The notes under the pieces: generated by a model
The model's database searches: none
Seen by the model: only the letters and a program-made list of their open reading frames with translations
Told to the model about the DNA's origin: nothing
Translations under genes and position numbers: made by a program
Shown: positions 33,601-45,240 of the stretch, in pieces
Position numbering within the stretch: the stretch's first letter is position 1
How the letters are laid out: every line of letters begins with the position of its first letter
Assembly (NCBI GenBank): GCA_026770025.1
Contig: JAMXDE010000030.1
Span: forward strand, 1 to 64,000
Length of the DNA: 64,000 nt
From: Craspedostauros australis
Taxonomy: Eukaryota > Bacillariophyta > Bacillariophyceae > Mastogloiales > Achnanthaceae
Direction: 5' to 3'

Positions 33601-34006
33601 AATTGTGGCCAGCCCCGATGGAGATCAACGCCACGCAGTCGAGGACATGTGCCAGAAAGCAAAGGAATGGGCGAGCAAAGTGCGAGCGGGCAGGCTCAGC
33701 CGAAGAGAAGTGTGGAGGGCTTTAAGGCACACCATCTGGAAAACGCTGGAGTATCCGCTACCGGCGACTACCCTGACCAAGAGCCAGTGCGAGGAAGTGA
33801 TGCGACCAGTGCTGCAAGTGGCTCTCCCAGCAGCAGGAGTCCAGCGCAACGTTGCCAGAAGCATTGTGTTCGGCCCAGCAGAAATGTTGGGGCTGGGTAT
33901 CAAGCATCTGTACTGGCAACAGCTGACGCAACACCTCTCCACTATTTTCAGGCATTGGCAGGCGTCAACGCTCACTGGAAAAATGCTGAGGGTTGTTGGA
34001 ACATGA
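30668..34006 (+). CDS. LINE ORF2, 5' part: APE endonuclease and reverse transcriptase (broken by copia insertion)
   Basis: The start ATG overlaps the ORF1 stop. Residues 1-310 are an exonuclease-endonuclease-phosphatase domain: IATLNVGRLP, LLTEVG, a GGDINMNV metal-site motif near residue 229 and a catalytic-type DHRTVW near 296. A basic, helical linker follows. The reverse transcriptase has TSGPSGLHFGLW, KFRTISLL, ANDAKGCYDRI, a GVTQGHGAAPA region and the catalytic FVDDTDL near residue 880. The genuine frame stops matching at 33993, and the last four codons are copia LTR sequence. The remainder of the protein resumes in frame at 39898. As it stands the ORF lacks its RNase H domain. Confidence 0.87.
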   Translation: MISGMVALGEPNLTRTKRQGMRTAVGTDVQRASQRWGEDERRKGKDTIRIATLNVGRLPRDPTSHKQQELWQWIKQTKIDICLLTEVGINWSKTGARDSWEERIRHHFSKAKDARAWNQTETAGGVTQWGGTAVVVMGHTASRVLSKTNDRLGRWASMLLQGKDGVKVRIVSVYVPVRSNNGPRSVYMQQLTALQETGANASQNPIQRLLADLRTQIIEWRRQGEELVVGGDINMNVTRSEFSKMMEEEGFKELVLSSRRDESVDTHQSGRTGRAIDGIWGTDALLTERAGMTGFHEWDHRTVWTDVREERVFGRKKQRDVKFTGRRLRLSLKKSVEKYNNDVRKQMREQSIPERVQALEATIGDRMEEWQQTELEAIDKARTAIMVKAERNCRKVKMGRVPFSPTADKAKKTKLFWDAAVKRRKGKVVKSRHMDRLKKKARLEVNTRYMTLQELEKKRNAAWEAWKEVKRNAITYRRSFMEEEVQQTTASGKVVESKHRQQIQAREETKEAWRKIQWATGKSKGAGVGMVTGEIQGLGHKTWTEPEQMARCFCEENGKKYQKALSAPIFQYNLPRSLWTGQDEWLHHLTHTARGPDEYTNWLLQCIEQSRGPVWEGQQRRVTSDEHQAGWKKARERTTSGPSGLHFGLWKAQSMEPDLRQIDASMRSISLRTGYNLKRWMQCTDVQLAKQAGNINVDKFRTISLLEADMNMNNKLLGARVMRHAEAHGMIAPEQYGSRKRHRSQEVSINNRLSNDVMRIHAAPGIICANDAKGCYDRIAHPILAASMQAMGVPWTQTKAMIRNVEDMKHRIQTILGPSKASYRGNRRAPFQGVTQGHGAAPACWVVVSTPIIEVMRRRGHGFQHKGCMTGEEVEFVCFTFVDDTDLIHTFRTADEQQMVAEAQEVAETWNGLLKATGGAIEPAKSHWYLISFVWKNDKWEYRASEDVPGSIRITKPDSHERTDIERLEVTEARRTLGIVASPDGDQRHAVEDMCQKAKEWASKVRAGRLSRREVWRALRHTIWKTLEYPLPATTLTKSQCEEVMRPVLQVALPAAGVQRNVARSIVFGPAEMLGLGIKHLYWQQLTQHLSTIFRHWQASTLTGKMLRVVGT
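33988..33993 (+). repeat. Copia target-site duplication, left (GAGGGT)
   Basis: GAGGGT is repeated directly after the 3' LTR at 39892-39897. The true duplication may be five bases with one chance match. Confidence 0.8.
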
Positions 34007-34656
34007 CGAATATTCAGATTCGTGTATGACCCGGTAGGGGTCACAGTTGCGCAAATGACTGCTCACACATATTTGTTTGTCCAGAACTCCTTCTCACGAT
34101 CAAATGTTCCAAACCCGAAAACGGAAATTTACAGCAGAATCCTCGAATATGACGAAAGAATCTCGGAATCTTCAGAAACAAATAATCTACGAGCCGAGAG
34201 GAATCTAACGTCAGCGGAAACGTGAGGAGCAGAGCATGAACGTCAGCAGAGGAGCAAGACCAGATATATATGGATGAGAGGAACCACTTAGGTAAGACGT
34301 CAGGATTAGAGACTGACGCAATCGAGTTCCTGAATCTCTGTCTGACACAACCAAGACCAAATAAGACAACAACACGACGAACTGCGGGAAACTGGCGCAG
34401 GTCGAGGATTCACATCGCGGTGGATCGTTAGGAATTAGGAAATGATCTGACTCAATAGGAGTCAGAACTACACGAGTTTGCAGGGCAACTGGAGATTGAC
34501 ATGAGTTGACTTTTGACAGACAAGTCGAGCTCATAAATCGCAGAGAAAGAGGAATCACCAACCTACAAACCCGGGATAACAGAACAACTAACTTAGTGAA
34601 CCAATTGTAGCCCCACCCGGTCTACATGAGCAACAGGATTGAGACCTGTTTCAACA
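33994..34656 (+). repeat. 5' LTR of copia element
   Basis: It begins TGTTGGAACATG and ends CTGTTTCAACA, with inverted TGTTG/CAACA termini. The sequence matches 39229-39891 throughout. Confidence 0.93.
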
Positions 34657-34671
34657 CGTTTTAAAACGTGT
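34654..34671 (+). other. 18-bp palindrome across the LTR/internal junction
   Basis: ACACGTTTTAAAACGTGT is perfectly self-complementary and overlaps the last three LTR bases. Outer arms (GTTTCA at 34648-34653 and TGAGAC at 34674-34679) extend the stem imperfectly. This is where a tRNA primer-binding site is normally found, and no TGG-type site is seen immediately after the LTR. Confidence 0.75.
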
Positions 34672-34727
34672 CTTGAGACACTCAGACACACGAAGTTGGG
34701 CCATCAGGGCTGAAGAACAACGACAAG

Positions 34728-37700
34728 ATGGATGAAGACGGGGTCAAGTCGGTGAAGATCGTCAAGTTCGACGGCGAGGACTTTGACGAGTGGTTGGACG
34801 TCTTCATGGCTCTCGCTGCGTGCAAGGGGTACGATGAGGTGTTGGACGAGACAGTCGCGGTACCAAGGCATGATCAGGCAGCCAAGAGCGAAGCAGAGAA
34901 GAAGGCTGAGCGGATGAACAAGGCAGCATACAGCACACTGATGCTCAGCACTGAGGGGCTGGCGAGAAGCATCGTGAGGGAGTGCAAGACAGATCACCAA
35001 CCCAAGGGTGATGCTGTGGCAGCGTTGAAGGCACTTCAGGACAGGTATGCACCGCGGGACAAGGCAGACAAGGTGACGAAGCTCAACGAGTTCACCATGT
35101 GTACACTGCAGACTCCGGAAGAGGATCCAAGCCAGTGGATGATGAGAATCAACAAGATTGTGAAGGAGCTGAAGGATTTCGGTGTGGAGAAGACGGATGA
35201 CGACTGCATTGCGCATGTGATGGTGAACCTACCGGAGGAAATCTACAGCGAGGTGAAGACTACACTGGATAGAGAGCTGAATGATGGAGACCTCAAGTGG
35301 GAGTCGCTGAAGAAGTCCCTGATCCGATTCTGGAAGAGGAAGGTGAGGACGAGTGAGGATGGGAGCACTGCGTCGACTTCAACCAACAAGGCCTTCAACA
35401 CCATGACGAAGGGGTATCAGAGCGGGTTCAAGGGCACGTGTCGCAAGTGTGGAGAATACGGACACAAGGCAGCAGAGTGCACCAAGCCACCAACCAACAA
35501 CAATGACTACCTCCAACGAATCAAGTGCTACAGATGCAAGAAGCAAGGGCACAAGGCCAAGGACTGTCCGGAGAAGAACGGACAGGGCGGACAAGCAGGA
35601 GGATCTGGGAACACCCACTCTGGAATGTTCGTTGGTATGGCAGCAATATCTCATGTAACTGGGACAGATGGCAGGCAGGCTGGAGACAAGAACAAGTGGC
35701 TGGCTGACACCGGAGCTACATGCCATGTGACCTGGTCAACCGAAGGGATCACAGATCTGGTGGCGGTCACCAATGACAGACAGGTGCAGGTGGGAGACCG
35801 CAACATGGTGACACCAACCCATGTGGGGGAATTTCATGGAGAGTGCCTGGACGGTACCGAGTTCATCTTGAAGTCAGTCTTCGTGGTCCCAGGATTCGCA
35901 CACAACATCATCAGTATTCCCCAATTCCTGGAGAAGGGATGCACGCTCAGTGGAGGCAAGGATGATATCACTTTGAAACATCCAAGCGCCAACATCAGTC
36001 TGAAGTTCCAACATGAAGATGACAATGGAGACGGCAACCTGTACTTCCTCAAATGCAAGTCAAAGGGGAAGCCAACGGAATCCATCATGGCCACGGGAAC
36101 TGTGGAGAGGAAGAGCACCATGGATGTCAATCGAGCTCATCGCATCCTGGGGCATCCAAACGAGCGCTACACCAAGCTGACAGCAGCAAAGGCAGGCTGG
36201 TCACTCACTGGGACTTGGAGAGCATGTGAGGCATGTGCAAAGGCAAAAGCAAAGGCGAAGGGAGTGAGGAAGAAGGCATTTGAGAAAGCTACCCACATCG
36301 CTCAACGCCTATACCTGGACATTTCTGGTCCATACAAGAAGACGACCAAAGGAAGCAACTACTGGCTGTTGATCGTGGATGAGGTTTCCAAGAAGAAGTG
36401 GAGTTACTTCCTGACGAACAAGAGCCAGCTTGCAGGACAGGTGGAGACTCTACTCACCAAACTCAAAGGTGCAGACCTGAAGGTGGAGGCCATTCGGTGT
36501 GACAATGCTGGTGAGAACCAAGGGAAGCTGGAGAAGGTCTGTGACGAGCATGGAATCCAACTGGAGTACACCGCCCCCAACACACCAATGATGAATGGTG
36601 TTGTCGAGAGAGGATTCGTGACGATTCGAGATTCGGCACTGGCGCTCATGTTGGATGCTGATCTCACTGATGAGGCACAAGGACGGCTTTGGGCGGAGGC
36701 AATCCACACGGCAACCCGTCTCCATAACCTGACGGTCACGACAGGCAACGACAAGAGTCCAGATGAAACCTTCTACGGCCAGAATCCCAAGCTCTATCCG
36801 CATCTGATGGAATGGGGACGCGTCGGATACGTAACGGATCGCGCCAAGAAGCCGAAGCTTACACCGAAAGCATTCAAAACGGTGATGCTGGGCTATGCTG
36901 ACAACCATGCAGGCGATACCTATCGGATGCTGAAGGTTGATACCAACAAGGTGGTGATGTCCAGAGACCTGAACTGGATGGAGTGGCATGGAGCAGGGGT
37001 CGTGGATGGTGTGGAGATCATTGCACAACCTGAGCCTGCATCCAATCCAACACCAGCAGCAACCGCAGCCGCAGTCCCAGATGAGAAGGCTGTGGTCGAT
37101 GCGGATGTTCCACTGATGATGACTCCGTCCACTGGGGAGAGAGCAGCAACCACCAAGATTCCAAAGATGGTCAGCATCGATGAACTTCCTCATGTCATTT
37201 CGGACGATGAGAGCGGTGTGATGGCGGACCCAACCGACCATGTCCGGGACGATATCAACGGAATCGTTGTAGATCCTGGGCTTGTCTCTGATTCGGATGG
37301 AAATGAGGGCATGGATGACTTCGAGATGGTGGATGTGCATCAGGCGAATGAACGGCGTGTGGCACCTGCGAACCAACGTGAGAGACATCCAACTCGTCTG
37401 GCAGTTCCGCAAGCTGGGAGAGGGTCATCCAAGATGGAGAGAGAGCGAGCGAAACTACAGACCTGGAGATCCTACGAGGTGCAAGGCCGGAATGATGGAA
37501 GGCCAAACACCAGATCCGGGAGAGTGTTGATGGTTTTCAACGCTTCCCTTACTTCTGATCCAGGGCTACCGAAGACGCTCAAGGACGCTCTGAGCAGACC
37601 AGATGGTGACAAGTGGAAGGGAGCAGCTGAAAAGGAGGTTCACAACTTCCAGAAGCGCGACTGTCTCCAAGTCATTGATCGAGGCAGCATGGGACGAGGA

Positions 37701-39176
37701 CGCACTGCACTCAAGTCTCGCTGGATATTCGTGAAGAAGTCCGAACAGGATGGGTCAACACGGTACAAAGCGAGGCTGGTGGTGAAGGGATACGAACAGA
37801 TCCCTGGAGTGGACTTCACAGAGTCATTCTCCCCGGTCGCAAGTGATACCACAATTCGAACAATGCTGGCGGTGTGCCTGGCCAACACTGGATGGGTGAT
37901 CGAAGCCCTGGATGTGGAGGCAGCATTCCTGAACGCAGAGATTGAAGAAGAGGTGTACATCGAGATCCCAGAAGGATTCGTGGACGGAGACTTTGACGGA
38001 AGGGCAGATCCAGAATATCGTCACAAGCATGTTGCAAAACTACTGAAGGCGGTGTATGGAACGGTTCAAGCACCCAGAGCATGGATGAAGACTTTCACAG
38101 CAGCACTGGTGGACATTGGATTCACCAAGAGTCTGGCAGATCCATGCTTGTTCGTGTACAAGTCGAGCGGGCAAGTCACAGCACTGGTGATAGTGTATGT
38201 TGACGATGCTGCTATCGGAGGAGACCCAGTCACAGTCGAATGGATCAAGGAAGAGATCGCACGCAAGTTCAACATCACGGACCTTGGAGAGCTCACCAAA
38301 CATCTGGGAGTATGGTACAAGAGGATGACTGATGCAGATGGCAAGTGCCTGGTGGTCAGCATGGACGACTTCGTGGAGCAGATGATCAAGGAATTCGAAC
38401 AGCACTACGGATCGAACATCAGACTCTTTGAGACCCCAGGATACCCATCAACTACCCTGGTGAAGGCGGCCGAAGATGATGAAGTGGACAATCGCGCTGG
38501 ATACCGATCCATTGTTGGCAAGCTCCTCTGGATGATGAAGAAAGTGGGACCAGAGTGTGCCAACGCTGTCAGAGAACTTGCATCACATCTGGAGCATCCA
38601 ACCAAGGAACACTGGAAGGCGATGGCGAGACTGATCGGATACATCAAGGCTGAGATTGCGAAGGAGGACAGCTATGCCATCAAACTCAGGAAGCCGCGCA
38701 GGCTGGAGATCGAAGCATGGTGCGATTCGGATTACGCAACGAACAAGGATCATCGTCGCAGCGTCTCAGGCAACATCGTGACGGTCGGAGGGTGTCTTGT
38801 GAGCTGGCAGTCCAAGACACAGCGATCGGTGACACTCTCGAGCACAGAGGCGGAGTACGTGTCGATGGCAAACTGCGCAACCGAATGCAAGTTCGCCAAG
38901 ATGCTGCTGGATGAGATGACCGGAACCAACACGCAGATCACTCTACATGGCGACAACACTGGAGCAATCTTCTTGACCAAGAACCAGCAGGTTGGACTAC
39001 GCACCAAGCACATCGATGTGGCATATCACTTCATCAAGGAGATGGTACAGGGAGGAGAGATGACCATGAAGTTCACACCATCCGAGATGAACTTCGCGGA
39101 TCCCATGACCAAGAATGTGAAGGAGAGCATTCATGAGAGGCTGGTGCCATCCATCAGACAAGGAGGGTTGAAGTGA
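34728..39176 (+). CDS. Copia Gag-Pol polyprotein
   Basis: The 1482-aa single-frame polyprotein is complete. Gag (about 1-290) ends with two CCHC knuckles, CRKCGEYGHKAAEC near 236 and CYRCKKQGHKAKDC near 266. The aspartic protease has ADTGATCHVT near 325. Integrase follows, with an HHCC finger (HRILGHP near 470, CEACAKA near 498) and a DDE core (LDISGP near 529, CDNAGEN near 590, NGVVERG near 626). The reverse transcriptase contains RYKARLVVKGYEQ, LDVEAAFLNAEIEEEVY and YVDDAAIGG (near 1156). RNase H has WCDSDYA (near 1330), SSTEAEYV and RTKHIDVAYH. Gag and Pol are in the same frame with no shift signal, as usual for copia. All catalytic residues looked for are present. It starts 72 bp after the 5' LTR. 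Confidence 0.95.
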   Translation: MDEDGVKSVKIVKFDGEDFDEWLDVFMALAACKGYDEVLDETVAVPRHDQAAKSEAEKKAERMNKAAYSTLMLSTEGLARSIVRECKTDHQPKGDAVAALKALQDRYAPRDKADKVTKLNEFTMCTLQTPEEDPSQWMMRINKIVKELKDFGVEKTDDDCIAHVMVNLPEEIYSEVKTTLDRELNDGDLKWESLKKSLIRFWKRKVRTSEDGSTASTSTNKAFNTMTKGYQSGFKGTCRKCGEYGHKAAECTKPPTNNNDYLQRIKCYRCKKQGHKAKDCPEKNGQGGQAGGSGNTHSGMFVGMAAISHVTGTDGRQAGDKNKWLADTGATCHVTWSTEGITDLVAVTNDRQVQVGDRNMVTPTHVGEFHGECLDGTEFILKSVFVVPGFAHNIISIPQFLEKGCTLSGGKDDITLKHPSANISLKFQHEDDNGDGNLYFLKCKSKGKPTESIMATGTVERKSTMDVNRAHRILGHPNERYTKLTAAKAGWSLTGTWRACEACAKAKAKAKGVRKKAFEKATHIAQRLYLDISGPYKKTTKGSNYWLLIVDEVSKKKWSYFLTNKSQLAGQVETLLTKLKGADLKVEAIRCDNAGENQGKLEKVCDEHGIQLEYTAPNTPMMNGVVERGFVTIRDSALALMLDADLTDEAQGRLWAEAIHTATRLHNLTVTTGNDKSPDETFYGQNPKLYPHLMEWGRVGYVTDRAKKPKLTPKAFKTVMLGYADNHAGDTYRMLKVDTNKVVMSRDLNWMEWHGAGVVDGVEIIAQPEPASNPTPAATAAAVPDEKAVVDADVPLMMTPSTGERAATTKIPKMVSIDELPHVISDDESGVMADPTDHVRDDINGIVVDPGLVSDSDGNEGMDDFEMVDVHQANERRVAPANQRERHPTRLAVPQAGRGSSKMERERAKLQTWRSYEVQGRNDGRPNTRSGRVLMVFNASLTSDPGLPKTLKDALSRPDGDKWKGAAEKEVHNFQKRDCLQVIDRGSMGRGRTALKSRWIFVKKSEQDGSTRYKARLVVKGYEQIPGVDFTESFSPVASDTTIRTMLAVCLANTGWVIEALDVEAAFLNAEIEEEVYIEIPEGFVDGDFDGRADPEYRHKHVAKLLKAVYGTVQAPRAWMKTFTAALVDIGFTKSLADPCLFVYKSSGQVTALVIVYVDDAAIGGDPVTVEWIKEEIARKFNITDLGELTKHLGVWYKRMTDADGKCLVVSMDDFVEQMIKEFEQHYGSNIRLFETPGYPSTTLVKAAEDDEVDNRAGYRSIVGKLLWMMKKVGPECANAVRELASHLEHPTKEHWKAMARLIGYIKAEIAKEDSYAIKLRKPRRLEIEAWCDSDYATNKDHRRSVSGNIVTVGGCLVSWQSKTQRSVTLSSTEAEYVSMANCATECKFAKMLLDEMTGTNTQITLHGDNTGAIFLTKNQQVGLRTKHIDVAYHFIKEMVQGGEMTMKFTPSEMNFADPMTKNVKESIHERLVPSIRQGGLK

Positions 39177-39216
39177 CAATCGACGTCATTTTGAGATGAA
39201 AGGAGAGGTTCTGCAC

Positions 39217-39228
39217 AAACAGGGAGAG
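39217..39228 (+). other. Polypurine tract of copia element
   Basis: AAACAGGGAGAG lies immediately before the 3' LTR and would prime plus-strand synthesis. Confidence 0.7.
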
Positions 39229-39891
39229 TGTTGGAACATGACGAATATTCAGATTCGTGTATGACCCGGTAGGGGTCACAGTTGCGCAAATGACTGCTCA
39301 CACATATTTGTTTGTCCAGAACTCCTTCTCACGATCAAATGTTCCAAACCCGAAAACGGAAATTTACAGCAGAATCCTCGAATATGACGAAAGAATCTCG
39401 GAATCTTCAGAAACAAATAATCTACGAGCCGAGAGGAATCTAACGTCAGCGGAAACGTGAGGAGCAGAGCATGAACGTCAGCAGAGGAGCAAGACCAGAT
39501 ATATATGGATGAGAGGAACCACTTAGGTAAGACGTCAGGATTAGAGACTGACGCAATCGAGTTCCTGAATCTCTGTCTGACACAACCAAGACCAAATAAG
39601 ACAACAACACGACGAACTGCGGGAAACTGGCGCAGGTCGAGGATTCACATCGCGGTGGATCGTTAGGAATTAGGAAATGATCTGACTCAATAGGAGTCAG
39701 AACTACACGAGTTTGCAGGGCAACTGGAGATTGACATGAGTTGACTTTTGACAGACAAGTCGAGCTCATAAATCGCAGAGAAAGAGGAATCACCAACCTA
39801 CAAACCCGGGATAACAGAACAACTAACTTAGTGAACCAATTGTAGCCCCACCCGGTCTACATGAGCAACAGGATTGAGACCTGTTTCAACA
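39229..39891 (+). repeat. 3' LTR of copia element
   Basis: No difference from 33994-34656 was found by eye. It is preceded by the polypurine tract and followed by the GAGGGT duplication. Confidence 0.93.
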
Positions 39892-39897
39892 GAGGGT
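39892..39897 (+). repeat. Copia target-site duplication, right (GAGGGT)
   Basis: Matches 33988-33993. Using one copy, the LINE frame continues from 33993 into 39898. Confidence 0.8.
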
Positions 39898-40036: not shown

Positions 40037-42160
40037 ATGGGGAATTCGATCTCAAGACCCAGACGGCAAGGAGATCGACCTATCATGAACGTCCTTGCAG
40101 CGATATGCGACCTGGAGGAAATGAGGCAAGCAAATCTGTGCAGACGGTCGCTACAAGTCTTCTGGATGTCCGAGATTGTATCGGCAGACGGGCGAAGTGT
40201 GCGGCAGGCCGCAATTGACGGAGACAGCACACAGATCAGACAGAGCACGATGCAAATTCCAAGAGTCGGGCGGATCAAGGCAGCCTACTGGGCAACCTGG
40301 GGAGCCAAACTGAAGTCTCTGACGACGAGAGATGGAGTGCTCCACGATCAGTACAAGCTTGGAGGATGGCGCAAAGACGAGGCAACAACGTCGATGCGGT
40401 GGTGCGAAGCCACAGGAAGGTTGCAAGTCAAAGAGGCGCAGTGGACTGTGTGGCAGGAAGTGCCCATGAGATCACGCCGACGGATGTTCCGACGCATTCC
40501 CAACGCCGTGGGGGACGGGTCCGGTGTACCAGCTGACGGGTATCTCCAGGGCGATGGTCTGCGCATGCTGACCACAGGAGAGTGGGAGGACGAAAGGCCC
40601 GCCCTCAGCACCTCGGCCATGCCAGATGCGTGGCGAAGCCTCGATGAGGACGAAGCCTGGGCCATCCAACACGTGCGCAGCGAGACAGACTGGCAAGACA
40701 TGGCGAGGAGTATTCAGGACGGGACAGCGGTTGGAGGCAGCGATGGATCGGCGAAGGGAGGTAAGGGGTCGGCAGCGTGGGTGATGGCGACAGATGCCAC
40801 GCTCGAATCGATTGCCTTCGGAACGCTTGAGGCACCGAGACGGGAAGGACCCACGTCGTCGCAGCGAGCAGAACTCGCAGGCATATTCAGTGCACTCCTA
40901 ACGATCAGGGAAATGGAGAAAAGATATGAGATGGAAGGGGGGGAAATGCGATGGAGCTGCGACAACATGCAGGCGCTCAAGTCGCTGGAGTGGGACGACG
41001 ATCCAGATCCCTCAAGCCCCGACTACGATATGATGGTGGCCACCATACGCGTGCGGAGACAACTGCGGACGAAGGTCAGCGGTCAACATGTGCGAGGTCA
41101 TCAAGACGGCCGCAAGCAGCTGCATGAGCTGGATGCATGGGAGCGCATGAACGTGATCACAGACAGACTGGCGGCGCAACGCTGGGAGCTGCTAGAGAGC
41201 ACTGACAGCTGGAGCTACCATCAACACACGGGGAAGGCAGCATGGAGTGTGTGGAAGGGCGGCGTCAAGCGATCGAGAATCACCTACGACAATATAGCTG
41301 GCGCCAACATCAGCGAAGCGATGACCAGAGTGCGGCGGGAACGGGGCATCGACACAGGCAAGGAAGACGAAGCGGACGAGGGCGCCATGCGGCGGGCGGC
41401 GACGAGTCTGTCTGAAACGCAGAGAGTGCTGACGATGAAGCTTGTGTTGAAGGAGGCAGCAGTGGGAACCAGGATGGTGCAGTGGAAGGCGCGAGTGACG
41501 GATGTGTGCCCCCGGTGCGGCGAGACTGAGACGCACGAGCATCTTTGGGTGTGCCAATCTGAAGAATCCCTTGCGTTGTGGAGAACGCAGCGACACCGGT
41601 TACGGAAGACATTACGGAAGGCGGCGACCCACCCAGGTCTTGCCAAAGTGATGGTGCGGAATGTGAAGCAAACGTCCCGAGGGCTCGGCCCGGTGGGACG
41701 CATACGGGCGAATCAAGTGGAGGCCAAGCTGATGGACGATCAAAGCGCGATCGGGTGGAGCAGGTTCCTGAAGGGGGTGATGGCCGCGTCATGGTCCACC
41801 CTGCAGGCGGAGTACTACGTGCGCATAGGTAGCAAGAGATCGGCGGAGAAATGGGCAGCGCAGGTGGTGCGGAAGGTGTGGAGAATTGCGTGGGAGCACT
41901 GGTACCAAAGGAACCAAGCCATGCACCACAGTGATCAAGGGCCCGAGGCTGAGCTGCGGCAGATGGTGAGAGACTACGCGAAGCGGCTACAGGAGGAGGG
42001 CCAGGAGCAGAGCTACCAGGACGCGGAATGGGCGCAGCTGACTCTAGATGGCCGCGGAGCGACCGATATTGTCGCGACATGGGTTATAAGCGTTAATTTC
42101 TTGTGTTCATGCAGGGCGTGGACTGGCTCCGTGGTTCGATTCCGCAGCGCGCTATTTTGA
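40037..42160 (+). CDS. LINE ORF2, 3' part: RNase H domain and CCHC knuckle (separated fragment)
   Basis: The frame is open from 39898, where it joins the 5' part exactly. The ATG at 40037 is simply the first one present and is not a natural start. A type I RNase H domain is clear: GGSDGSAKGGKGSAAWV (first Asp), SQRAELAGI (Glu), WSCDNMQAL (Asp) and GHQDGRK...DRLAA (His/Asp region). A CCHC knuckle, VCPRCGETETHEHLWVC, lies near 41508-41560. From 42070 the frame reads into a second insertion, so the last 30 codons up to the stop at 42158-42160 are not LINE sequence. It is probably not expressed by itself. Confidence 0.8.
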   Translation: MGNSISRPRRQGDRPIMNVLAAICDLEEMRQANLCRRSLQVFWMSEIVSADGRSVRQAAIDGDSTQIRQSTMQIPRVGRIKAAYWATWGAKLKSLTTRDGVLHDQYKLGGWRKDEATTSMRWCEATGRLQVKEAQWTVWQEVPMRSRRRMFRRIPNAVGDGSGVPADGYLQGDGLRMLTTGEWEDERPALSTSAMPDAWRSLDEDEAWAIQHVRSETDWQDMARSIQDGTAVGGSDGSAKGGKGSAAWVMATDATLESIAFGTLEAPRREGPTSSQRAELAGIFSALLTIREMEKRYEMEGGEMRWSCDNMQALKSLEWDDDPDPSSPDYDMMVATIRVRRQLRTKVSGQHVRGHQDGRKQLHELDAWERMNVITDRLAAQRWELLESTDSWSYHQHTGKAAWSVWKGGVKRSRITYDNIAGANISEAMTRVRRERGIDTGKEDEADEGAMRRAATSLSETQRVLTMKLVLKEAAVGTRMVQWKARVTDVCPRCGETETHEHLWVCQSEESLALWRTQRHRLRKTLRKAATHPGLAKVMVRNVKQTSRGLGPVGRIRANQVEAKLMDDQSAIGWSRFLKGVMAASWSTLQAEYYVRIGSKRSAEKWAAQVVRKVWRIAWEHWYQRNQAMHHSDQGPEAELRQMVRDYAKRLQEEGQEQSYQDAEWAQLTLDGRGATDIVATWVISVNFLCSCRAWTGSVVRFRSALF
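42064..42069 (+). repeat. Target-site duplication of 450-bp element, left (CGATAT)
   Basis: CGATAT recurs at 42520-42525. Collapsing the two keeps the LINE reading frame. Confidence 0.6.
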
Positions 42161-42519
42161 CATGGTAGTGTGCTGCGGAATCGAACCGCTCTGCCTACCA
42201 GGCCACCTTAGTCGAAACTGCTACTGTCTAGATACAAATACCTGTTCTGACACCCTTCCTATTGGTAACTAGACTAGCCCTTCAGCCCCTACCAGCCCTT
42301 CCGGCTACGTAGTCAGACCGCTCACACTCTATGTTTATCCTCCCGCTGTAGGGAGACGGCATTTCGTCCCAGTCGCCAACAAGGCATGATGTTTTCGAGG
42401 ACTCGAACCCGCGACCTTACCATGTTACGACATAAGGTGCTGCGGAATCGAACCGCTCTGCCTACCAGGCCACCTTAGTCGAAACTGCTACTGTCTAGAT
42501 ACAAATACCTGTTCTGACA
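42070..42519 (+). mobile_element. 450-bp non-autonomous element with tRNA-like segments, inserted in LINE ORF2
   Basis: It begins TGTCGCGAC and ends CTGACA. Its outer nine bases pair with one another at about seven positions. CGATAT flanks it on both sides. It contains a GGTTCGATTCC B-box-like motif on the + strand (about 42133) and, inverted, GGAATCGAACC twice on the other strand. A second tRNA-like motif, GGACTCGAACC, lies near 42399. An 84-bp segment is exactly duplicated inside it. It has no coding capacity. A tRNA-derived SINE or a miniature retrotransposon is the likely class. Confidence 0.6.
42170..42253 (+). repeat. 84-bp direct repeat, copy 1
   Basis: It matches 42437-42520 exactly by eye, starting GTGCTGCGGAATCGAACC and ending TGTTCTGACAC. 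On the minus strand it reads like a tRNA 3' half joined to an A-box-like TGGCCTGGTAGGC. Confidence 0.85.
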
Positions 42520-42520
42520 C
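42437..42520 (+). repeat. 84-bp direct repeat, copy 2
   Basis: Second copy of 42170-42253, separated from it by 183 bp. Its end coincides with the end of the 450-bp element. Confidence 0.85.
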
Positions 42521-42525
42521 GATAT

Positions 42526-42628
42526 CGCTACAGTGGCCGTGTGGATCGGGCAAGTGCAGCGCGTGCGTGGACTGCCGGCAGATCATGCTCCAGCAGAGGT
42601 ACGCAACTGGCTACGACGCCGCAAATGA
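42526..42628 (+). pseudogene. Original C-terminal codons of LINE ORF2, cut off by the 450-bp insertion
   Basis: When read in register from 42069 across one CGATAT, this stretch continues ORF2 for about 34 codons. It ends with RNWLRRRK and a TGA at 42626-42628. The following 340 bp to 42968 would be the natural 3' UTR of the LINE. Confidence 0.6.
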
Positions 42629-42985: not shown

Positions 42986-44850
42986 CTCTCCCCAAGCACT
43001 CGCATGTGATGTGTTGACACGTGACATCCTGTGCTGGTGGTGGGTCAGGTGATCCAACCAAGGGTGATCCAACCGCAGATGATCCAACCGCAGATGATTA
43101 ATTTTGCAGCAAGGATTACATGCGACAGCGTTCACCCGTCTCTGACCCTGCATTCGCGTGCGGTGTGCTGCGTTGATGTTGCATATGGTGATTCAACCGT
43201 TGCAGATTCATTTCGCAGCGGAGATGGCACCTGGCAGTGTCCACCCGCCTCCAAACATGTGCTCGTTTCTAGCATTCTCGCGTGTGATAGCATTTGTTGG
43301 CAGTGTGCACAGTGATCTATGCGCAAGGCCATTCACTTTGCAGTGACAATCACATCTGACAGCGCCCTTGCATCTCCGACCCAATGCTTGTGCATGGTGA
43401 CCTGTCTCGATGTGCGCGCTGGGTGATCCAACTCACACTGGATTCACCTCGCAGTGAGGATCACGTCAACAGCTCGCAGCGTCCCTCCATGTACCATCCA
43501 CCATGTGTTCGAGTGTGTTGCGCCGGGTTCTCCAACCGCGGCGCGGTTCACTTGCAGCAACAATCACATCTGAACTCGTCTCCGCATCTTTGAACATGTG
43601 CTCGTGTATGCTGATGCTGCGTTGCCACTGCGCGAGGTGGTCCAAGCACAGCGAATTTACGTTGCAGCGAAGGTGGCATCCGACATCACCCATCCCTCTG
43701 TGACCATGTGCTCGTTTGTGATCTTTCCACGAGTGATGTACTCGCATGTGATGGGCTGCATGGATGGTGCACAGGTTGATCCTTCATTGTGCAGTTGTGA
43801 TGACATCCAAGAGTGCCTCTCCATATCCGACCATGTACTTGGATGTGATATGCATGGTGGCCTCTGCGTGGCGACCTCTGTATGAACTCATTCATTGCCC
43901 ATCGCGGATCGCATCCAACAGTGTCCCCCATTCTTGGCCTTTTACTTGATGTCATGTGTTGTGGCGGCCTGTGCTGGGTGATCCATGCTCAGTGTGATCC
44001 ATATGCAGGGTGATCCACTTCGCAGTTGTGATTGTATCAGAGAGCGCCTCTCCACACGCGACCATGTGTGCTCAAATGTGATGTGCCAACTGTGCTATGC
44101 TATGTTGGTGCTGCGTAGGGTGACCCAACCGCATCTCCAGTTGCTGTGCATTGAGGATCATATGCAATAGCGTCCATCCATCTCTGACCTAGTAGTCGCG
44201 TGTGGTTGGTTTGCATGGATTGGCCTATGCTGGTCTGCATTGATGGCATGCAACGTGATCCAAACTCAGGATAGACTCTCTCGCTCCAAGGAGAGAATCG
44301 CCTATCACAGCGCCCCTCTATCTCTCGCCATGTGCTCACGTTGGATGTGCCGTGTTCATGTGTGTGCAGGGTGATCAACCGCAACGGATTCATCTTGCTG
44401 TGACGATCACATTCGCCCGCGCCCACCCATCTCTGGCCTTGTTGTGGTGTGTGATGTTCTGTGTTGGAGATGACATTGCACACACCTTGCCTCCCTCTCT
44501 GAAAATGTGCTTGCATGTGCTGTGCCATGCTGAGGATCGTCGTGATGTTGGGTAACAGATCCACTTCGCGATGGGGGTTACATCGAACAGCCCCTCTGCG
44601 TCTCTCACAGCATGCTTCATGTGCTGAGCTCTGTTGATGTTGTGTTGAGTGCTCGAACGCCAGTGGACTCATTCGGTGACGAGGACAACATTCACCATCA
44701 TCCCTTCATCTCTCACCCTGTGTGCTCAAGTGTGTTGTGCGATCGCGTGCTGGGTTCAGATTGGGCAGGGCGATCTGACTGCATGTCAAGTGACTGAACA
44801 GCGAGGACTGTATCCCACAATGTCTGTCAATCATCCAACAGAAGAGAGCT
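42986..44850 (+). repeat. Degenerate ~120-bp satellite, right block
   Basis: About fifteen diverged copies of the unit described at 26650-28023, with recurring GTGATCCAACCGCAG, CACTTTGCAGTGA, CCATGTGCTCG and GTGATGTGCTGTG-like elements. No gene is supported in it. Confidence 0.78.
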
Positions 44851-44854
44851 GTGG

Positions 44855-45240
44855 TGATATGCTGCGATGTCATGCTGTGATGCCATGCCGTGGTGCCATG
44901 TCGTGACGCCATGCTATGGTGTGATGCTGTGCCGTGATGCCATGCCGTGATGACATGTTGTGATGCTGTGCTGCGATGGCATTCTGCGATGCCATGCTGC
45001 GATGCCATGCTGTGATGCCATGCCGTGACGCTGTGCCGCGACGCCATGCCGTTGCGCCATTTTGTGATGCCATGTTGTGATGCCATCTTGTGGTGCGATA
45101 CCGTGCCGTGATGATCTGCCATTCTGTGATGCCATGCTGTGATGTCATGCGTCGATGCCATTCTGCGATGCCATGCCATGATGTCATGTTAGGGTGTCAT
45201 GCTCGGATGTCACTTTCGGATGTTCCGTTGATGCTGTGCT
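44855..45240 (+). repeat. 15-bp minisatellite (TGTGATGCCATGCCG-like)
   Basis: About 25 imperfect units with frequent T/C changes. Because the period is a multiple of three, all frames stay open, producing repeat ORFs such as a five-residue ITAWH/MASQH pattern on the minus strand. These are not taken as genes. Confidence 0.8.

Follow-up and report, generated by a model that had tools for sequence, protein, structure and literature searches.

A probable cDNA chimera of two TRIM families with tRNA-like LTR modules, inserted in a LINE of the diatom Craspedostauros australis

The stretch analysed here, called the window, comprises 64,000 nucleotides of Craspedostauros australis (GCA_026770025.1, contig JAMXDE010000030.1, positions 1 to 64,000, forward strand) and holds a LINE that carries a Copia retrotransposon and, close to the end of ORF2, a further segment of 450 bp (Table 1). 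The copies of CGATAT abut 42070-42519 without a gap on either side, as had been claimed in a preliminary description made from the sequence alone. The corresponding empty site is found in a LINE copy on C14, which lacks the insert, has CGATAT once, and in which the two flanks overlap by 6 bases; this copy is 97.8% identical to the window over 2181 bp to the left of the insert and 98.9% identical over 448 bp to the right. ORF2 of the C14 copy terminates in ...ATDIATVAVWIGQVQRVRGLPADHAPAEVRNWLRRRK followed by a stop (...EVRNWLRRRK), and its open frame matches the in-frame extension to RNWLRRRK proposed earlier. If the 450 bp belonged to the 3′ region of the LINE, other full-length copies should carry them at the same place, and the C14 copy does not. 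It is therefore confirmed that the 450 bp are a real insertion into the LINE, accompanied by a 6-bp duplication and displacing the end of ORF2. The Copia of the window is also absent from the C14 copy, where its two flanks overlap by 6 bases. Downstream of the LINE, at 43000-43500 and 44706-45196, lie degenerate repeats (TGATCCAACC-like) with long minus-strand frames of H/M/A/S repeats.

Table 1. Positions of the features discussed, numbered along the window unless a locus is named.
Feature	Position	Strand	Evidence or remark
Copia within this LINE, candidate for the type of mobilising partner	33994..39891 (stretch 33988-39897)	+	identical 663-bp LTRs, 6-bp duplication GAGGGT
Target-site duplication CGATAT, left copy	42064..42069		single copy at empty site on C14
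Complete 93-bp LTR of TRIM family A (TTTTGACA variant)	42070..42162	+	100% to solo LTR C2:1957396 (L067)
A tRNA-like module	42115..42154	+	6-bp acceptor-like stem, T arm, A at discriminator position
A PBS, first 10 nt (TGGTAGTGTG)	42163..42172	+	full-length A copies: TGGTAGCGTG
B 3′ LTR, 83 of its 97 bp (14 outer bp missing)	42170..42252	-	100% to B LTRs
B internal region, 170 bp	42253..42422	-	internal lengths as in B copies
B polypurine tract (AATAGGAAGGG)	42253..42263	-	adjoins 3′ LTR in B copies
Internal hairpin motif common to A and B (CTACAGCGG..G.ATAAA.ATAGAGTG)	42325..42351	-	pattern hits, alignment
B primer-binding site TGGTAAGGT	42414..42422	-	complementary to ACCTTA of own LTR + CCA
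Complete 97-bp B 5′ LTR	42423..42519	-	100% to LTRs of C51 and C19 copies
B tRNA-like module in complete LTR	42433..42476	-	fold, pairing, covariation
Target-site duplication CGATAT, right copy	42520..42525		single copy at empty site on C14
Displaced LINE ORF2 end (RNWLRRRK)	42520..42628	+	contiguous in C14 copy
A LTR joined to antisense Copia LTR fragment, then another Copia-like coding region	L068 731-1046 (also L133, L134)	-	

When the 450 bp were searched against the 74.8-Mb genome, at least 45 matches were returned. Among the matches listed, the whole insert (1-450) was covered by the window itself only; one of 45 was the window's own inverted repeat (64-118), and the remaining ones were confined to the first 93-103 bases or to 101-450. 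The left part is an LTR of a family that we call A, 97.8-98.9% identical to the corresponding LTRs in 13 full-length A copies, and the solo LTR to which it is identical (L067) has a perfect 6-bp duplication. It continues into the A primer-binding site (PBS), where one base (T for C) matches neither parent and where the last three nucleotides of the segment, GTG, are common to family B, the sequence being B antisense from 42170 on. The internal region and both LTR parts of the B portion together amount to 350 bp without a difference from two full-length B copies and run to the exact outer end of the B 5′ LTR at 42519. The insert therefore has no direct LTRs at its two termini, the left one being A sense and the right one B antisense.

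Several features noted earlier find their explanation in this arrangement. The B-box-like motif GGTTCGATTCC does occur in the insert in both orientations, because the A LTR faces the B LTR, and the near-inverted ends are read at the termini as TGTC...GACA. An exact duplication of 84 bp is present (42170-42253 and 42437-42520), although its last base is coincidental and the true repeat measures 83 bp; it results from the LTR pair of B, being that part of the 97-bp LTR which remains where the left copy is short of 14 bp at its outer end. A hairpin of 24 pairs at the junction (z -10.8) exists because GGTTCGATTCCGCAGC is present in both LTRs. The 450 bp are a single-copy head-to-head fusion of two gene-less mini-LTR elements, inserted as one piece.

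Both A and B are TRIMs that occur separately elsewhere in the genome. They have two direct LTRs, a total length below 1000 bp, no coding capacity, a PBS, a purine tract and a target duplication of fixed length. The LTRs start with TGTC, replaced by TGTT or TGC in part of the B LTRs, and end in ACA, TGGTA... follows the 5′ LTR, and a purine tract (GGGAGGG / GGAAGGG) precedes the 3′ LTR. Family A has LTRs of 93 bp and a total length of 357-358 bp. The 21 A places fetched outside the window comprise 13 full-length copies, all with perfect 6-bp duplications (in one the match extends to 8 in a TC run), and eight LTR-only places, two of them with perfect duplications, one with one mismatch, one without (L068) and four in one flank. 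These last four solo LTRs (L070, L071, L072, L073) have common flanks on four contigs and two to four mismatches in the duplication, and by reading they represent one old A insertion copied together with a larger surrounding repeat. Family B has LTRs of 97 bp and a total length of 364 bp, and is found in eight places: two full-length copies that are identical to each other (one duplication perfect, the other with one mismatch), a decayed copy on C6, and five LTR-only places (one perfect duplication, four with one mismatch). A SINE is excluded for A, for B and for the insert by the LTRs, the PBS, the purine tract and the constant 6-bp duplications, and the mixed termini of the insert speak against one standard TRIM; the preliminary description was right to assign the insert to neither class.

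The internal hairpin motif common to A and B gave 17 matches in a genome pattern search (A 13, B 4), none with the reversed pattern, and none in viral contigs. In the hairpin the loop TACAGC is conserved while stem pairs are changed, and ATAAANATAGAGTG follows; a role of the hairpin in packaging or dimer formation is possible. A second B-box-like T arm immediately follows the PBS in each family (42396-42412; GGTTCGATTCC in A, GGGTTCGAGTCC in B). A pattern search for a third family returned 59 rows, of which 57 fell on LTRs of A or B, an LTR often accounting for more than one row, and the other two were isolated matches on C5 and C9.

Each LTR contains a module of 40-44 nt with an acceptor-like stem of 6 bp, a D-like part, a T arm and a discriminator A, and with no anticodon arm. 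TTTT directly follows the A module (42155-42158); B has no run of four T. By reading, the B module matches TGGCNNRGYNGG and GGTTCGATTCC, and the A box of A is weak. Over six distinct natural variants 60/60 pair cells of the acceptor stem are standard, against at most 63% paired in slid controls, and two acceptor pairs differ on both sides between A and B, a covariation that in effect compares two related families. In shuffles the count of pairs changed on two sides was not unusual (245/500), whereas the cell and covariation measures were (1/500). The fold of B was better than that of shuffled sequences (z -1.55 for the module, -3.14 for the LTR) and the fold of A was not (+0.80 and +1.63). ARAGORN found no tRNA gene in the window. 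A permissive Rfam search yielded at least six matches, the listing omitting one lower-scoring match of a clan. The six listed all stayed under their gathering scores, and the tRNA family itself was not among them; five were to miRNA families, four of these lying on the junction hairpin, and one was to a tmRNA family. The insert had been called tRNA-like, and this holds for the tRNA-related modules in the LTRs but not for a whole tRNA.

A TRIM with a tRNA-like sequence in its LTR is a published kind, as Helenus TRIMs / TRIMp3 carry such a sequence (Kojima, 2024, PMC10886601, here and below as far as its text was available). A and B resemble Helenus in being short gene-less LTR elements with a PBS, a purine tract and a tRNA-like LTR with A and B boxes, their lengths fall inside the reported 311-1263 bp, and Copia, the candidate partner here, is the partner proposed in fungi (PMC10886601). 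The tRNA-derived LTR sequence that characterises Helenus is thus present (weaker in A), but its duplication of 4 bp (animals) or 5 bp (fungi and plants) is replaced by one of 6 bp, the modules are without an anticodon arm, and the host group, diatoms or red-plastid algae, is absent from Table 1 of that paper (PMC10886601). Cassandra, as described there, likewise has a Pol III-type small-RNA gene sequence within a TRIM LTR, but this is 5S rRNA and not a tRNA-like sequence (PMC10886601). The smallest TRIMs, SMART (292 bp), are similar in very small size and LTR anatomy, with no mention of a tRNA-like LTR module in the available text (PMC3281118). The 6-bp duplication, the arm-less module, a self-matching PBS, the host group and a chimera with two U3 ends were not found in the open-access literature searched, as far as its texts were available.

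The Copia of the window, with an open frame of 1499 aa, may represent the type of element that mobilises A and B. Its ends TGTTGGAACA...TTTCAACA resemble TGTCAGAACA...GTAACA of B (TGTY...ACA ends), and eight further copies, sampled from 22 exact matches (27 with mismatches), had perfect 6-bp duplications in 5/8 cases, the other three being without such ends at the expected places; no duplication length for Copia is given in the available text of PMC2806351. A Copia-type integrase fits A and B because the 6-bp duplication is shared and the ends are similar. Mobilisation by Copia is thus backed by duplication length and end motifs but not by a shared PBS, as the 5′ LTR of the window Copia is followed by a palindrome-like ACGTTTTAAAACGT and not by TGG. 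Pattern searches of the genome yielded no autonomous element with the A PBS (16 matches, 13 in A copies and three with one mismatch; five with the reversed control) and none through the internal motif (17/17 matches in A or B).

How the two elements came to be joined may be understood from LTR replication, in which plus-strand strong-stop DNA contains the LTR and the PBS. The A segment is a complete LTR with the first 7-10 nt of its PBS, and GTG lies at the junction, which points to a template switch of strong-stop DNA. On the simplest view, which is also the likely one, A strong-stop DNA formed inside the particle of a Copia-type element, annealed to B cDNA via GTG and was extended to the end of B, and the resulting linear DNA, with a U3 end at both sides, was accepted by the integrase and inserted with a 6-bp duplication. 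We consider it probable (roughly 80%) that the insert is such a cDNA chimera of two TRIM families with tRNA-like modules in their LTRs, since the parents exist separately, the junction occurs in the window only, and one duplication and one empty site account for the whole unit. A similar join is seen at L068 on C36, where an A LTR and TGG are followed by 219 bp of antisense window-type Copia LTR (99.5%, GG shared); the join resembles the event proposed for the insert, but no matching duplication was found within about 7 kb and a more complex Copia arrangement adjoins, so that it supports the proposal weakly. A B transcript serving as primer and copied through the junction would also predict the register, but two bases differ as against one for the A PBS, and this variant is not preferred.

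Counting against a chimera are the single occurrence of the junction in the genome, the PBS base that matches neither parent, and the outcome of the partner searches, in which no autonomous element with the A PBS or the internal motif was found, the window Copia having another PBS region. The single occurrence, together with the junction being known from the assembly alone, would suit an assembly artefact joining A to B; the perfect 6-bp duplication around the whole composite and the known empty site make such an error very improbable. Slightly less far-fetched, but still improbable, is a nested insertion of B into an A element in the LINE, after which deletions would have removed what remained of A and the margin of B. 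Both families are indeed present genome-wide as separate insertions, but two exact deletions would be required, the right end of B is flush with the LINE duplication with no A sequence beyond, and the left B LTR loses its 14 bp exactly where it is joined to the A PBS. Least credible of all is the suggestion of the preliminary description that the 450 bp form one undescribed non-autonomous family. The insert does behave as one unit, having TGTC...GACA at its termini and a 6-bp duplication around it; the window alone spans it, however, and apart from the inverted-repeat self-match all other listed matches fall on the A or the B part. Overall that description is borne out for the insertion, the ORF2 end and the tRNA relation, and given up for the single family.

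The chimera of A and B leaves aside which RNA primes the parents. Tf1 self-primes with the 5′ end of its own mRNA and not with a CCA-tailed tRNA-like RNA; A and B would resemble it in providing their own primer if the pairing of their PBS is taken at face value. The A PBS forms 8 pairs with the end of its own module plus CCA, followed by a wobble G.T and one more pair, in 13/13 full-length copies, and the B PBS forms 9 pairs in 2/2, while crosswise the pairing between A and B is 5. In the decayed B copy on C6 the site reads TGGTAAAT, which by eye leaves only 6 pairs with the module. Random letters with TGG fixed equalled the pairing with the own PBS in 0.11% (A) and 0.04% (B) of draws, figures to be read with the relatedness of the families in mind and with the match having been seen before it was tested. 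It is tempting to speculate that the LTR module would be transcribed, trimmed and CCA-tailed as a tRNA and would prime reverse transcription on the PBS of its own family. Judged from these pairings such self-encoded priming is plausible, not proven, and we hold it as a minority view. The same caution applies to the joint proposal, which remains tentative, that the TRIMs encode their own CCA-tailed tRNA-mimic primer without anticodon arm, its acceptor end coevolving with the PBS, and that the window insert arose by a jump of strong-stop DNA onto another element and is a cDNA that was integrated with a U3 end at each side and without any U5 end.

Somewhat favoured is the alternative that cellular tRNAs are the primers, initiator Met for A and an unseen tRNA for B, the module being only a Pol III promoter, a function proposed for it in Helenus, and the PBS match a product of chance, shared descent or a U5-PBS hairpin. 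Cellular tRNAs, matched at the 3′ end or the anticodon loop, are the primers assigned to Helenus, whose Pol III transcription is expected, not validated, and in which a PBS complementary to its own module end, as in A and B, was considered but not found (PMC10886601, section 3.6, as far as available). Our comparison set, an incomplete one, was limited to 27 distinct tRNA sequences of nuclear and organelle contigs. Among these, initiator Met (L129) came closest for the A PBS and a plastid Arg for the B PBS, each with 7 nt, and no cellular tRNA in the set paired as well as the own module. The covarying acceptor stem speaks for self-priming. Against it count that for A the initiator pairs just one fewer than the own module, the 7 nt of the plastid Arg with B, the fold of the A module, which does not surpass shuffles, and the reduced pairing in the C6 copy. 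The initiator tRNA was also sought by pattern: that for the anticodon stem gave a plastid match only, and that for the T arm gave 11 matches, of which seven were fetched and one was a tRNA-Met. Against cellular primers stands that each PBS suits its own module and not that of the other family, and that a hairpin leaves the CCA register unexplained. A genome pattern for the T arm and the end needed by the B PBS had nine matches, 9/9 in B LTRs, so that the 9-nt match of B is without a cellular counterpart by this pattern. The same type of pattern for the A PBS had 42 matches, 34 in A LTRs and eight elsewhere, and these eight yielded no ARAGORN tRNA gene; four of them look like one coding repeat. 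As the PBS pairs with the own module and no tRNA matched as well among the incomplete set, A and B either encode their primer or use unrecognised cellular tRNAs.

If self-priming holds, each element would carry in its LTR the primer that its PBS requires and would be freed from the choice of host tRNA. The chimera would document a template switch that took place naturally during the strong-stop stage, and it suggests that integration of cDNA with two U3 ends can occur. TRIMs with tRNA-like LTRs are extended to a host group outside the table of Kojima (2024, PMC10886601, available text).

Among the organelle contigs, C83 and C89 carry the same organelle tRNAs with matching spacing on both (L027/L028, L039/L040, L041/L042), and their nad-like frames suggest a mitochondrial genome that was assembled twice. 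One contig has a tmRNA and PsbV-like and Ycf66-like genes, a content that indicates a red-plastid alga, probably a diatom; in the PDB the PsbV-like protein is matched best by chains which we take to be those of diatom photosystem II.
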